The notes beneath the pieces are model-generated. The model worked only from the letters and a program-made list of their open reading frames with translations. It was not told where the DNA came from and made no database searches. Position numbers and translations under genes: made by a program. This document shows positions 8,435-23,880 of a stretch of 60,091 bases of DNA, in pieces; positions within the stretch are counted from its first letter, which is position 1, and every line of letters begins with the position of its first letter. Origin of the DNA: a virus; IMG/VR virus record IMGVR_UViG_3300046095_000129, positions 1 through 60,091 of that record; one strand, 5' to 3'.

Positions 8435-8457
8435 AGAGGGAGAATGGTTCTCCCTCT
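8435..8457 (+). repeat. Early-region palindrome, copy 1
   Basis: Arms AGAGGGAGAA and TTCTCCCTCT are perfectly complementary around a 3-nt TGG loop. It lies between the early promoter and the first early gene. It belongs to a six-member family with the core GGAGAAC-n-GTTCTCC, all in the plus-strand early region. Confidence 0.8.
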
Positions 8458-8893: not shown

Positions 8894-8916
8894 AGAGGGA
8901 GAACAGTTCTCCCTCT
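8894..8916 (+). repeat. Early-region palindrome, copy 2
   Basis: Arms AGAGGGAGAAC and GTTCTCCCTCT are perfect complements around a single A. It sits 14 nt after the stop of the 131-residue gene. Downstream, the leader of the next gene contains two more short inverted repeats (CACAGC/GCTGTG and GGGCAA/TTGCCC), so the whole 108-nt gap can fold. Confidence 0.8.
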
Positions 8917-9172: not shown

Positions 9173-9195
9173 AGGGGGAGAACTGTTCTCCCCCT
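9173..9195 (+). repeat. Early-region palindrome, copy 3
   Basis: Arms AGGGGGAGAAC and GTTCTCCCCCT are perfect complements around a single T. It is preceded by another imperfect hairpin (ATAGCCC pairing with GGGGCTAT, about 9137-9159) and followed 23 nt later by the next start codon. Confidence 0.8.
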
Positions 9196-9482: not shown

Positions 9483-9831
9483 GGGGGGTGGCCCACCTTT
9501 TTCCTGCAATGTCCAAGACTAATGGGCGCTGTACAGGAAGTGGGCTACCCCTAAGTTGTTGTTCTATAAGCGTTTCCAAAGAGGGGTGTCCTATATATAT
9601 AATTAAATAGATTTACTTTATATATACAGTAATCTTCTTTTATCCATTCGTTCTTTCTTTTGCGTTTGGTTTAAGATAAGATTACAAGGGCTTTGGTTTA
9701 TTTATTTTTGAATGTATACTTGGGACAGGAACCACGCAAACCCTTGTGCCACAAGGGTTTGAAGGTAGCCCACCTCCTGACCGGAGACCTGTAGTCTGGG
9801 ACATCGTTAGACATTTACTGGGCCACCCCCC
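9483..9831 (+). ncRNA. Candidate structured non-coding element with nested inverted repeats
   Basis: No gene lies between 9473 and 9879. Three pairs of complementary segments nest without crossing: GGGGGGTGGCCCA (9483-9495) with 9819-9831, 13/13; ATGTCCAAGACTA (9509-9521) with 9792-9804, 12/13; and CAGGAAGTGGGCTACC (9534-9549) with 9764-9779, 15/16 plus a wobble. The gaps between them match on both arms (13/14 and 12/12 nt). Inside lie three hairpins: TATATATAA near 9593 with TTATATATA near 9617, GTAATCTT (9629) with AAGATTAC (9678), and CAAACCCTTGT with its complement (9737-9761, 3-nt loop). The core 9586-9720 is very AT-rich. It may be a large structured RNA, a replication origin, or a relic of an element with long terminal inverted repeats. 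Confidence 0.5.
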
Positions 9832-9845
9832 ACCCAAAAAGCAGC

Positions 9846-9862
9846 GGGAGAACGGTTCTCCC
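9846..9862 (+). repeat. Early-region palindrome, copy 4
   Basis: GGGAGAAC and GTTCTCCC flank a single G. It lies 17 nt upstream of the next start codon, just before its AGGAG ribosome site, so the RNA hairpin could influence translation of that gene. Confidence 0.78.
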
Positions 9863-9879
9863 CCTAAAAAGGAGCCGAT

Positions 9880-10668
9880 ATGGTCGAATCTTACGCAGCG
9901 CTAACGCCAAAAGCGTTAGCAAACCACCTTGCCAAGCGCAAAAAACCCCTTGTGTTGGTGCAGGCGATCCAAGAGCGTGCTGCCCAACAACGTGCGTTCA
10001 AGCGCTCCGACACGGGCACTAGGCGAACGCACAAGGAACTGTGGGGCAACCTGCTGTTCCCCCTGCGTTATGAGCGCAACAACGTGAAGGCTGGCATCAA
10101 GTATGCCGGTGGCGAAGCAAGGGGTGAAGCAATGCGCAGTTATCTCAGTGTGCTGGAGGAACTGCTCTACCGGCTGAACATGCACGCCACAGCCCGTATC
10201 CTGACCCCGCGCCAACTGTGCAAGGAGCGCAACGACTCGGGCCGAGGCGCACACATACCCAATGCGGGAACCCATTGGTCTGATTGGGTTCCGCAGCACA
10301 TCAAACTGAGGGTGTGTGTCCTGTTCGACGCCATTCCCTATAAACAGCGTGCGAAACGCAAGCTACCTTTCCAGCGTGCCATACCCCCGCTGTTGTACAG
10401 CAGGCTGTACGCAGCCCTTGGCTTGCGGACGCAGGGGTTCCTGAGTGCAGCACAGCGCAAGCATGCCGTTGCGCCCACAGAGGAGACAGCAGCCACTGTT
10501 GCAGCCATACAACACGCGCTGGCTGTCCTGAGAGAGTGGCCCCGCAACACAGCCCTGCCCTACGCATGGCAGAGCCTTGCGGCAACGACCAGTATCAAAC
10601 AGAGGGAGAACGGTTCTCCCCCTGCTGAAAGCGGACGACCGCCGCTGAAAGCGGACGACCGCCGCTGA
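9880..10668 (+). CDS. Hypothetical basic early protein, 262 aa
   Basis: The start has a good ribosome site (AAAGGAG, 6 nt away). The protein is rich in Arg, Lys and Ala with little acid, suggesting nucleic-acid or host-protein binding, but no domain is recognised. The last 25 residues are odd: the frame runs into copy 5 of the palindrome family and into 20-bp tandem repeats, so the stop lies inside the third repeat. The original gene may have ended earlier, with the tail being read-through into repeat DNA. Confidence 0.6.
   Translation: MVESYAALTPKALANHLAKRKKPLVLVQAIQERAAQQRAFKRSDTGTRRTHKELWGNLLFPLRYERNNVKAGIKYAGGEARGEAMRSYLSVLEELLYRLNMHATARILTPRQLCKERNDSGRGAHIPNAGTHWSDWVPQHIKLRVCVLFDAIPYKQRAKRKLPFQRAIPPLLYSRLYAALGLRTQGFLSAAQRKHAVAPTEETAATVAAIQHALAVLREWPRNTALPYAWQSLAATTSIKQRENGSPPAESGRPPLKADDRR
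10601..10623 (+). repeat. Early-region palindrome, copy 5
   Basis: GGGAGAAC-G-GTTCTCCC core with outer pairs extending to 23 nt (one mismatch). Unlike the other copies it lies inside an open reading frame, 45 nt before its stop. Confidence 0.78.
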
Positions 10669-10683
10669 AAGCGGACGACCGCT
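10624..10683 (+). repeat. Three tandem 20-bp repeats
   Basis: The unit GCTGAAAGCGGACGACCGCC occurs three times head to tail, with one end change in the last copy. Each unit contains GCGG-ACGA-CCGC and can form a small hairpin. A 20-bp period shifts the reading frame, so the array is not selected as a protein repeat. It could be an iteron-like or RNA element. Confidence 0.85.
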
Positions 10684-11556: not shown

Positions 11557-11614
11557 AGTAAGAAACCCGTTGCCGATGCGGTTCCATTGGTGTGTTAGTT
11601 ATCAAGGAAACAAA

Positions 11615-13225
11615 ATGAAAATCTATCTTAGTGATTGTGGAAGTGTGCTCAAGGCACAGATCGTGGACGCCAGCACGCTGGTGCAAGTCACGGGCACGCT
11701 GGACGGGGGCTACAGGGAACTGCGGCACTACATGCCAAAGCCTACGTTCTCCACCCCGGCGTATGGGCCAGAGCATGTACGCATGCTGAAGGCAAACAGC
11801 GGGGATGTCTACGGGCAGATGCTCAGTAGCATGGTGAACCAACTCACGCCGTCAGCAGCATGGCGTATGCGTTCGCTCTCCCGCCGTTGGGCAGACAGGG
11901 ACGACACCCGCTCTCCCACAGCGCACTGTCGTGGGGGCCGCTACCAACTGAGCAACATGGGTGTCTACCGGTTCAAGGCAATGAAAGAGTTGTACCGCGA
12001 ACTCAACGTGCATGTCAAGGCATCCATCCTAGGCGATGCGGATGCGCTAGTCGAGTTCGTTATGGAGCACGATGGGAACGACCTGATAGAAAGGATGTTC
12101 GGCAAGATAGTCGACTTCCTTGATGGACAGGTGGTCTTGGCAGACTGTGGTCACATCAGCCGTACGGATGACATCACAGATGTGCACCGCAGTTCAAGGC
12201 TGTTCAGCACCATGTGCATTGACTGCCGGGGCAACGATGCGGTGTACTGCGAGGATGCTGACGAGTACTACCTTGAGACGCATGCATACCGCCACAGTGA
12301 TGGCGAGTGGTATTCGTACGAAGAAGAGCGGGATGAGGAAGAAGACGAGGAGACTGCACACAACGGGCACTCCATGAGCTACTCCGCAGATGTCTTGCGG
12401 TATGCCTCTGCCGATGGGAGCATCCGCAGTTCCAAGTATGGTGACTTCACGATGGGCATTGAGTTGGAGATGGCTCCGGGGCGTGCGTCTAGGTATGATG
12501 CCATTGAGGATGTGCGGAGCCAGCTTGGGCATGACTACTGCATCATCAAGGACGATGGCAGCATCAGCGGGGTCAATGGCTTTGAGGTAGTGACAGCCCC
12601 CCGTGGTCTGAAGGAGCACATCACACGCTTCAAAGCATGGGATGTCAACAAGTCCTACCGTGCTTGGGATGTGGAGAAGTGCGGCACGCATGTGCACATC
12701 GACTCCCGTGCCTTCACTGAGTTGACTCTGGGCAAGTTCCTCATGTTCATCAACTCCAACAACAACGCCGACTTCATCCGCAATATAGCAGGCAGGCATC
12801 CGCTCAAGGACAGCCAAGCACGGGAGTACTGTGCCAATGAGGAGCAGGGCATCTTGCACAACCCCAAGCAGGCCATCCTTGGCAAGACGGCACAGCGCTA
12901 CTACATGGTGAACCTGAACAACTTGGCGTACGACGAGTCCCAACGCTTGGGGTTCAAGCGTACGTACACAGAGGGCAAGTACAACACGATAGAGCTTCGC
13001 ATCTTCCGCGCCACACTCAAGAAGGAGCGCTTGCTTGCACAGATAGAGTTCACCCACGCCTGTGTGCACTTCTGTCGCAGTGCGAGTTTCCGCGAACTCA
13101 ATGGCACAGAGTTCGTGTCATGGCTCAAGACGACCAACAACACCTACCCACACCTGTCCGATTGGTACGGCACACGCCGCCCCAAGCAGGTTCCCCAATC
13201 TCCCGCACTCGCAACAACTGAATAA
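11615..13225 (+). CDS. Amidoligase-type COOH-NH2 ligase, 536 aa
   Basis: The C-terminal half matches the putative amidoligase family (Amidoligase_2, glutamine-synthetase-like COOH-NH2 ligases). Visible motifs are GIELE (Glu283, Glu285), KDDGSISG then GFEVVTAP, CGTHVHID (residues 356-363) and NTIELRIFRATL near the end; these give the acidic and His metal/ATP-binding residues. The N-terminal ~270 residues are phage-specific and include a very acidic stretch and a Cys/His cluster (CGH...CIDC, CEDADEYY). The reaction would be ATP-dependent amide bond formation. I chose ATG 11615 (AAGGAAAC site) over a TTG at 11570. It is followed 11 nt later by a class II glutamine amidotransferase. Confidence 0.78.
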   Translation: MKIYLSDCGSVLKAQIVDASTLVQVTGTLDGGYRELRHYMPKPTFSTPAYGPEHVRMLKANSGDVYGQMLSSMVNQLTPSAAWRMRSLSRRWADRDDTRSPTAHCRGGRYQLSNMGVYRFKAMKELYRELNVHVKASILGDADALVEFVMEHDGNDLIERMFGKIVDFLDGQVVLADCGHISRTDDITDVHRSSRLFSTMCIDCRGNDAVYCEDADEYYLETHAYRHSDGEWYSYEEERDEEEDEETAHNGHSMSYSADVLRYASADGSIRSSKYGDFTMGIELEMAPGRASRYDAIEDVRSQLGHDYCIIKDDGSISGVNGFEVVTAPRGLKEHITRFKAWDVNKSYRAWDVEKCGTHVHIDSRAFTELTLGKFLMFINSNNNADFIRNIAGRHPLKDSQAREYCANEEQGILHNPKQAILGKTAQRYYMVNLNNLAYDESQRLGFKRTYTEGKYNTIELRIFRATLKKERLLAQIEFTHACVHFCRSASFRELNGTEFVSWLKTTNNTYPHLSDWYGTRRPKQVPQSPALATTE

Positions 13226-13236
13226 GGATATCAATC

Positions 13237-14271
13237 ATGTGTCTCATCATCACTGGCAAGTCTGCCAAGATTCGCAGCACCCTGCTCAACACAGCCGGGT
13301 TGCTTGACACCATCTACACCTCCAACCCTGACGGGATTGGGCTGATGTACAACACCGCCAAGGGACTCAAGACCGTCAAGGTGTTGCCCAAGTCAGCAGC
13401 GGATGCACGCGCCATCATCAACAAGATACCCAAGGATGCCCGTGAGATGGCAATCCACTTCCGCTGGGCCACACACGGCAAGACAGACTTGCATAACTGT
13501 CACCCGTACGATGTCATACCGGGCTACGTTGCCATGATGCACAACGGCGTGCTGCACACCGGCAATGAGGCTGACAAGGACAAGTCAGACACATGGCACT
13601 TCATCCATGACTACCTGTCGGAGTCGGTGCACATGGCCCCTGAACTGGTGTTCGTTGATGGGTTCCTCGCCATGATCGCGGAGTTCATTGGAGACAATCG
13701 GTTTGTGTTTATGAATGGCGAGGGGCGCATCAGCCATGTCAACAAGGACTCAGGCATTGAGCACGATGGCATGTGGTTCAGCAACACCTACGCATGGAAC
13801 CCGGCACTGCTGATACCCACATACAGAGCACGCGCTGTGTCCTCACGCTACCTTGGGTCATGGAACGTGACCGACACAGACGAGGAAGACTATGGGTACT
13901 ACAGCCGCAGCTTCAACGCGCACAAGCCCATAGCGGCATCGAAGCCGCTCGTTACTGTGGAGGAGATCACCGCGCACCTTGAGTCATACGATGCGCCGGG
14001 TCTGTGTTACCTGCTAGAGGCGTTCCCTAGCACGACCGTGCACCTGCTGTGCAAGAACTTCATCCCAAGCCCCACCTCTGAGGCGTATCGGGATGAGATC
14101 AGCGCGCATGAGACGGCTGTGTACGACATGCTGCTGGAGCAGGACATGACGGGGTTGCTGACCTACATAGCGCACTCTGCGTCCTCCGCTGCCACAGTGG
14201 CGGATGTGATCTGTTACTACCTGAACTGGGAGAGATGCGTGAGCACCCGGCCCAGCGTAGCAGCAGCTTGA
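13237..14271 (+). CDS. Class II glutamine amidotransferase, 344 aa
   Basis: Begins MCLIITG, so Cys2 becomes the N-terminal nucleophile once Met is removed, as in the Ntn-hydrolase glutaminases of GlmS, PurF and YafJ type. The family blocks HFRWATHG (about residues 72-79), NCHPY and MMHNGVLH follow at the expected distances. It would release ammonia from glutamine. The glutaminase domain ends near residue 200; the rest is an unassigned helical region. Directly downstream of the amidoligase, it probably feeds or balances the ligase reaction. A terminator lies right behind it. Confidence 0.82.
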   Translation: MCLIITGKSAKIRSTLLNTAGLLDTIYTSNPDGIGLMYNTAKGLKTVKVLPKSAADARAIINKIPKDAREMAIHFRWATHGKTDLHNCHPYDVIPGYVAMMHNGVLHTGNEADKDKSDTWHFIHDYLSESVHMAPELVFVDGFLAMIAEFIGDNRFVFMNGEGRISHVNKDSGIEHDGMWFSNTYAWNPALLIPTYRARAVSSRYLGSWNVTDTDEEDYGYYSRSFNAHKPIAASKPLVTVEEITAHLESYDAPGLCYLLEAFPSTTVHLLCKNFIPSPTSEAYRDEISAHETAVYDMLLEQDMTGLLTYIAHSASSAATVADVICYYLNWERCVSTRPSVAAA

Positions 14272-14358: not shown

Positions 14359-14371
14359 AAACCCATAACAG

Positions 14372-14390
14372 GTGGAGAACGGTTCTCCCC
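14372..14390 (+). repeat. Early-region palindrome, copy 6
   Basis: Core GGAGAAC-G-GTTCTCC (14374-14388), imperfect outside. It begins about 8 nt after the predicted transcription start, so the mRNA would carry this hairpin at its 5' end. Confidence 0.75.
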
Positions 14391-14410
14391 CTAACAATTT
14401 TGGAGAAGCA

Positions 14411-22299: not shown

Positions 22300-23880
22300 A
22301 TGGAAATCATAGAAAACAAAGCACTGTTACTACGAACTCGTGACCCCGGTAAATACGGCATCATCCCCAAGAGTCGAGTCGTTGAGCAGCACGAAGACGG
22401 GTCGGCCTCGGTAGCAGTTTACTGGGGGCTGGAAGAAGCAAAGGTGCTTAGAAACTTGGGCGTCAAAGATGTACCCTCGCCCATAACCAAGCGCTATCAC
22501 TGGCCCGGACGGTACATACCGATGGCGCACCAGATTGAGACAGCCGGGTTCCTGACCATGAACCGCAAGGCGTTTTGTTTTAGTGAGCCGGGTACGGGCA
22601 AGACCCTGAGTGCGCTGTGGGCCGCAGACTACTTGATGTCACAGGGCGTAGTGCGAAGGTGTCTGATACTGTGCCCCCTGTCCATCATGCACAGCGCGTG
22701 GTTGTCGGACATGACCAGCAGCATCATCCATCGTTCTGCCATAGTCGCCCACCATGCTCAAGCTAGTCGGCGCATTGAGATGGTGCAGCAGAACTACGAG
22801 TTTGTCATTACCAACTACGATGGGCTGAACCTGATTGCGGACGAAGTGCGTAACGATGGGCGGTTTGATTTGGTGATTGCGGATGAGGCCAACGCCTACA
22901 AGATGCCCACTACCAAAAGGTGGAAGTCGTTGCAGAAAGTTGTCACACCTGACACGTACCTGTGGATGATGACCGGCACACCCGCTGCACAGTCTCCCGT
23001 AGATGCGTACGGGCTTGCCAAGTTCGTTAACCCCAACGGTGTGCCGAAGTTCTACACAGCATGGCGGGATCAGGTGATGAACAAAATCACGATGTTCAAA
23101 TGGGCTCCCAAACCAAGTGCGCCTGAGTCTGTGTTTGCTGCCTTGCAGCCTGCGATACGCTTCACCAAAGCACAGTGCCTTGACCTGCCGCCTGTCATCA
23201 CAATGGTGCGCGAAGTGCCGCTGACCCCACAGCAAAACAAGTACTACGTGATGCTCAAGGAACAGATGCTGGTGCAAGCCGCAGGGGAGACTATCACGGC
23301 TGTGAACGCTGCTGCGGGTGTGAGCAAGCTGTTGCAGATCAGTTGCGGGGCTGCGTATACAGACACAAAGGAAGTGGTGGAGTTCGACTCATCCCCACGC
23401 CTTGCTGTGTTGGAGGAAATACTAGGAGAGACACAGCGCAAGGTCATCATCTTTGCCTTGTTTCGTAGCACCATCTCAGCGATACACGCACACCTGTTGA
23501 AGCGGCACATAGCAACCGAAATGATCCACGGCGATGTACCCCCCATCAAACGGGGAGACATCATCAGGCGCTTCCAAAACGAGCCTGAACCAAGGGTGTT
23601 GGTGATGCAGCCAGCAGCATCCGCACACGGCATCACACTGACCGCTGCCGACACGGTGGTGTTCTACGGCCCCCTGATGTCTGTGGAGCAGTACACCCAG
23701 TGCATTGCCAGAGCAGACCGCAAAGGGCAGGACTCAGACAAAGTTACGGTGGTGCACATTCAGGGATCGCCCATAGAAAGACGCATGTTTAAAGCCCTTG
23801 GAGAAAAAGTGAGCGACCACTCTCTACTAACCAAGCTGTTCGACATTGAAATTAAAACAGGAAAGGGGTTGCAAATGTAA
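22300..23880 (+). CDS. SNF2/DEAD-type helicase, 526 aa
   Basis: Superfamily 2 ATPase with Walker A SEPGTGKT (95-102), DEAN box (195-198), TGTP motif III (225-228) and motif VI QCIARADRKGQ (467-477), which is the SNF2 signature. Length and motif spacing are normal for phage SNF2-like helicases, which remodel DNA or protein-DNA complexes at replication forks. The ribosome site is GGAGAAGCA. It lies directly upstream of the coiled-coil and SSB-like genes. Confidence 0.88.
   Translation: MEIIENKALLLRTRDPGKYGIIPKSRVVEQHEDGSASVAVYWGLEEAKVLRNLGVKDVPSPITKRYHWPGRYIPMAHQIETAGFLTMNRKAFCFSEPGTGKTLSALWAADYLMSQGVVRRCLILCPLSIMHSAWLSDMTSSIIHRSAIVAHHAQASRRIEMVQQNYEFVITNYDGLNLIADEVRNDGRFDLVIADEANAYKMPTTKRWKSLQKVVTPDTYLWMMTGTPAAQSPVDAYGLAKFVNPNGVPKFYTAWRDQVMNKITMFKWAPKPSAPESVFAALQPAIRFTKAQCLDLPPVITMVREVPLTPQQNKYYVMLKEQMLVQAAGETITAVNAAAGVSKLLQISCGAAYTDTKEVVEFDSSPRLAVLEEILGETQRKVIIFALFRSTISAIHAHLLKRHIATEMIHGDVPPIKRGDIIRRFQNEPEPRVLVMQPAASAHGITLTAADTVVFYGPLMSVEQYTQCIARADRKGQDSDKVTVVHIQGSPIERRMFKALGEKVSDHSLLTKLFDIEIKTGKGLQM

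Follow-up and report, generated by a model that had tools for sequence, protein, structure and literature searches.

A mirror-image DNA element of 290-350 bases was found in the ~60-kb genome of an uncultured phage, and it appears to be a cis-acting site that works at the level of DNA, for which a phage replication origin is the most likely, if still tentative, function. The window, i.e., the whole stretch of 60,091 nucleotides that was analyzed, is apparently a complete genome with an exact 127-bp terminal repeat, and the element lies 9.5 kb inside it. Its setting is an early, rightward gene block, where it is flanked by an 88-aa ORF on one side and by a gene for a 262-aa protein (p9880) on the other. 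The coordinates of the main features are listed in the table.

Features of the element and of the gene next to it in the 60,091-nt window
Feature	Positions	Strand	Remarks
Whole element as first delimited	9483..9831	none	gapless dyad, centre 9656.5
Outermost 13-bp arm	9483..9495	+	13/13 paired; window's group only
Partner of outermost 13-bp arm	9819..9831	-	window's group only
Second nested pair	9509-9521/9792-9804		12/13 paired
Third nested pair	9534-9549/9764-9779		15/16 paired
Left arm of shared dyad (45-145 bp off centre)	9511..9612	+	53/101 positions complementary to right arm
Right arm of shared dyad	9701..9802	-	pairs with left arm 9511..9612
TGTCC box, outer left	9510..9514	+	~144 bp off centre
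TGTCC box, inner left	9587..9591	+	~68 bp off centre
TGTCC box, inner right	9723..9727	-	+ strand reads GGACA
TGTCC box, outer right	9799..9803	-	+ strand reads GGACA
AT-rich, non-symmetric core (candidate unwinding region)	9589..9688	none	AT 0.77; genome's AT-richest 100 bp
AT hairpin CTATATATATAA...TTATATATACAG	9591..9629	none	most relatives have an AT hairpin
Perfect 12-bp hairpin within right arm	9737..9761	none	kept in close relatives
p9880 (candidate element-binding protein)	9880..10668	+	always directly downstream of element

A sequence-only reading of this DNA had described an AT-rich, gene-free segment closed by three nested pairs of inverted repeats with three hairpins inside. All three pairs are present as claimed and no credible gene was found within the segment, whereas the label AT-rich fits the core and not the arms. 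Two of the hairpins are real, and the third, a weaker one in the core, was seen in the predicted fold. Comparison with shuffled sequence, which that reading had proposed as a check, placed the nested helices far beyond chance and made the inverted repeats more significant than first claimed: the folding energy of the segment was -140.9 kcal/mol for the + strand (z -9.6, reached by 0 of 100 shuffles) and -133.5 kcal/mol for the - strand (z -8.9).

Relatives were collected by searches with p9880 and terminase, which returned close sequences (91-95%) and then many distant ones, all of them uncultured contigs. A gene-free stretch of ~300-450 bp precedes the clear p9880 homologs in nearly all cases with enough upstream sequence, the exceptions being L043 and L067. 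No cultured relative carrying the element was found: BLAST of the element and its neighbors against isolate phages and plasmids gave no matches, 50,697 isolate phage records contained no similar DNA or protein, and GTDB genomes gave no hit to p9880. The isolates related through TerL (HTVC027P and DSL-LC04) have a different gene order around terL. Judging from the sample types of related contigs, the phage presumably lives in fresh water. In addition, a blind scan for dyads found the element again, as the highest-ranking dyad, in two further genomes without a hit in the p9880 search; in both, it lies ~3 kb upstream of terL, has TGTCC-type boxes and a similar AT core, and the gene directly downstream encodes a distant p9880 homolog with an N-terminal CxxC...CxxC segment. 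A third genome missed by the p9880 search (G006) has a weaker copy of the element with a gene of this type downstream of it.

The anatomy of the element was defined in a non-redundant set of 81 related elements by trying every possible centre and counting complementary pairs without gaps. A significant single gapless dyad was detected in 72 of them, at a constant location immediately upstream of p9880 homologs. The complementarity profile, averaged over 16 sequence groups, is at the chance level less than 45 bp from the centre, high at ~45-145 bp and falls sharply outside, i.e., the symmetry common to the relatives runs from about +/-45 to +/-145 bp, and the outermost 13-bp pair of the window is half a base off the dyad register. 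Short boxes recur in both arms at fixed distances from the centre: GTCC at 67-68 and 143-144 bp in 7-10 of the 16 groups (~0.15 expected per position), and CCGCA at 98 bp in 12 and 11 of the 16 groups in the two arms. The window has all four GTCC boxes and lacks CCGCA. Its TGTCC boxes are spaced 77/136/76, compared with 76/134/76 in L060, whose arms are otherwise different. Boxes at conserved spacing, as expected of an origin, were thus present in many groups but not in all, and in some they are absent or altered (TGGC-type in, e.g., L088 and L065). No 10.5-bp periodicity was seen inside the arms.

The two arms evolve together. Within one element, the left arm is complementary to the right at 60% of positions, compared with 34% for a left arm set against the right arm of another group and 22-31% when the arms are slid by 1-10 bases; the centre was picked to maximize complementarity, and the best chance centre elsewhere in the sequence reached only ~0.34-0.43. 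Across groups, left arms share only 37% identity. Pairing is kept in at least 70% of groups at 31 positions, of which 30 have two or more Watson-Crick types and 23 have three or four. Compensatory changes, whose absence from related phages would have counted against the sequence-only reading, are abundant. Since alignment of the whole cluster with MAFFT and RNAalifold blurred the structure, the groups were analyzed separately. With three or four base-pair types per position, the complementarity points to physical pairing of the arms and not to protein recognition alone, which counts against a site read by protein boxes only.

The core between the arms is the second extreme feature. In all seven element-bearing genomes that were read whole, the AT-richest 100 bp of the genome, an easily melted region as expected of an origin, is the element core (in G003 another stretch ties with it), and in six of the seven, the window included, the element is also the strongest gapless dyad of the genome. 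The window genome encodes a terminase, a portal, and its own PolA-type polymerase and primase-helicase, the last two of which support an origin; a SNF2-type helicase is encoded at 22300-23880. Elsewhere in the early region (11570-14271), amidoligase-like and glutamine-amidotransferase-like genes are adjacent and possibly form a ligation/modification pair. The sequence-only reading had also proposed looking for a GC-skew switch at the element; however, in six of the seven genomes the minimum of the cumulative GC skew was located 1.7-2.2 kb left of it, at a gene-orientation switch near terS, and this is the main weakness of the origin reading. A skew switch is no strict requirement for phage origins, and the result is weak either way because skew is confounded by coding strand.

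Among the functions proposed from the sequence alone, a replication origin with a melting core is the best supported by the AT-richest core, the dyad boxes and the early-gene position, although it remains a leading reading and not a proven one. The mechanism that we envisage is as follows. Protein-binding boxes (GTCC at ~68 and ~144 bp and, in most groups, CCGCA at 98 bp) would lie in the two arms of ~100 bp each, which face each other in exact inverted register on either side of an AT-rich core of ~90 bp, where the genome melts most readily. Symmetric binding of a phage protein to these boxes, p9880 being one possibility, would be accompanied by opening of the core. After strand separation, the arms would probably fold back into a hairpin or cruciform, because their mutual complementarity persists while their sequence changes freely; such folding back may be part of recognition or a by-product of template switching.

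The closest functional analogs of such an origin are herpes simplex oriS and oriL with their UL9 boxes. In oriS, inverted boxes surround an AT-rich spacer, and a hairpin forms in the unwound origin (PMC12543377). Inverted boxes flanking an AT-rich spacer are common to the viral origins and the phage element, whereas the element has arms of ~100 bp each, whose sequence varies between relatives and yet stays complementary, and a bacterial host. Moreover, no UL9-like helicase is encoded beside it (the SNF2-type helicase gene lies elsewhere), and p9880 is only a candidate binder. The origin of phage lambda combines O-protein iterons with an AT-rich region, the iterons being direct repeats inside gene O in an asymmetric layout. 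The element resembles a lambdoid origin in that an AT-rich unwinding region and adjoining boxes, putatively recognized by a phage-encoded protein, lie in the early region, but its boxes are inverted, form a strict dyad and lie outside genes.

The protein p9880 is the first candidate binding partner of the element, because it is always encoded next to it and because distant members of the family have a zinc-ribbon-like segment at the N-terminus. It is basic, with a pI of 10.6 (9.2-10.6 among the family members checked) and is predicted to be all-helical (pLDDT 85). No match was found to solved or characterized folds, and its confident structural neighbors are only uncharacterized proteins of uncultured phages. 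No recognized initiator domain was found in the proteins adjoining the element.

Several other repeats occur around p9880. A 23-bp palindrome, AGGGGGAGAACNGTTCTCCCCCT, has six copies (8435-8457, 8894-8916, 9173-9195, 9843-9865, 10601-10623, and 14370-14392) in the gaps between early genes or at their ends, and one copy extends the p9880 reading frame; relatives have their own version, such as GGGGAACNGTTCCCC, and this type of palindrome looks like a phage-specific intergenic signal. A tandem array of three 20-bp GCTGAAAGCGGACGACCGCC copies (10620-10682) reads through the C-terminus of p9880, the last residues of which vary among close relatives. In relatives such as L050, L065, L088, and L121, an inverted repeat, GATTATTGA...TCAATAATC, encloses the complete element, overlapping the start-codon region of p9880, and it was also found around other early genes.

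The constant adjacency of p9880 also bears on the strongest rival to an origin, namely a regulatory role at the p9880 promoter. The element would then be a control region for early transcription, a DNA-looping operator or enhancer with a regulator (p9880 or another protein) on the dyad boxes and the p9880 promoter at its right edge. The position of p9880, always immediately downstream, is consistent with such a role, as are the promoter-like sites that 6 of 16 groups have on the + strand ~132-176 bp to the right of the centre. The distances from the centre to the p9880 start in the 16 groups also cluster in ~10.5-bp steps, roughly a helical turn each (170.5, 181, 191.5, 202, and 223.5, with 215.5 off the series), a clustering recognized post hoc with a Rayleigh p of ~0.02 on distinct values. 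However, no promoter position is common to all groups and the window has none in the right place, and an operator needs neither the AT-richest 100 bp of a genome nor arms complementary at nearly all positions. We consider a control region unlikely, about as probable as an RNA and ahead of the remaining rivals to a replication origin.

Compensatory change is ordinarily taken as a sign of RNA, and a new noncoding RNA was among the possibilities raised from the sequence alone. Such an RNA, or an RNA leader, on either strand would be a large structured rod of ~350 nt, and the very low folding energy and the abundant compensatory changes agree with it; the latter, though, are also expected of DNA that folds back. 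The strand asymmetry expected of a transcribed RNA, in which G-U is tolerated and A-C is not, was not observed. In 32 sequences, the mean fold z against shuffles was -6.6 and -6.4 for the two strands, i.e., equal, and single mismatches within helices comprised 50 G-T and 79 A-C (7 and 17 with one element per group), compared with 8 G-T and 2 A-C in a small control set of E. coli 6S, 16S, 23S, and RNase P RNAs. Neither measure has a plus-strand bias, and the slight excess of A-C would fit an RNA from the minus strand. The arms keep an exact gapless register around one point over 145 bp, whereas 6S, RNase P, and 16S RNA have no such register in the same dyad test (z at most 3.2). No Rfam match was detected in the window or nine relatives and no tRNA in the window, and no terminator or upstream promoter is common to the groups. 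In several groups, the candidate promoter of p9880 is within the right arm or past it, and the p9880 mRNA would thus leave the element out. GOLLD and ROOL are large structured noncoding RNAs of phages and bacteria; the element is likewise large, structured, gene-free, and phage-associated, but it has no Rfam match or strand preference and forms a gapless dyad and not a branched fold. Overall, an RNA is improbable, and we are fairly confident that the element acts as DNA.

A packaging (pac/cos) or segregation site, with the boxes bound by the terminase small subunit or a partition-like protein, is less probable still. The terminase genes are ~1.3-3 kb from the element in all relatives examined; nevertheless, at least three genes lie between it and terS, its association is with p9880 and not with terS, and the assemblies are circular or permuted, with contig ends in complete genomes never at the element.

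The least credible alternatives are a MITE-like insertion and a neutral palindrome that owes its persistence to nothing but template switching (quasi-palindrome correction). Template switching is described in PMC8604942 as homogenizing the arms of inverted repeats, would be strand-symmetric, and may explain why complementarity survives sequence change; by itself it leaves the boundary, the boxes, and the place unexplained, and a fixed outer boundary (+/-145), boxes, and location over deep divergence imply selection. The imperfect terminal inverted repeats of ~67 bp noted from the sequence alone do exist (72% identical) and recall a MITE, but the element occurs as one copy per genome at the same site in all relatives, its arms covary, and no target duplication or sign of mobility was recognized.

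If the element is a replication origin, it could be one recognized largely by shape, whose arms are free in sequence provided that they fold back on one another in exact register around an AT core, served by a new family of origin-binding proteins (p9880, with a zinc ribbon in distant relatives) found only in uncultured phages; we regard this fuller proposal as doubtful at present. Conservation of complementarity without conservation of sequence and without strand bias is a rare pattern that can be used for blind searches, and it also warns against taking compensatory changes by themselves as proof of an RNA. For an abundant group of uncultured phages, these findings would provide a defined cis element and a candidate protein that binds it.
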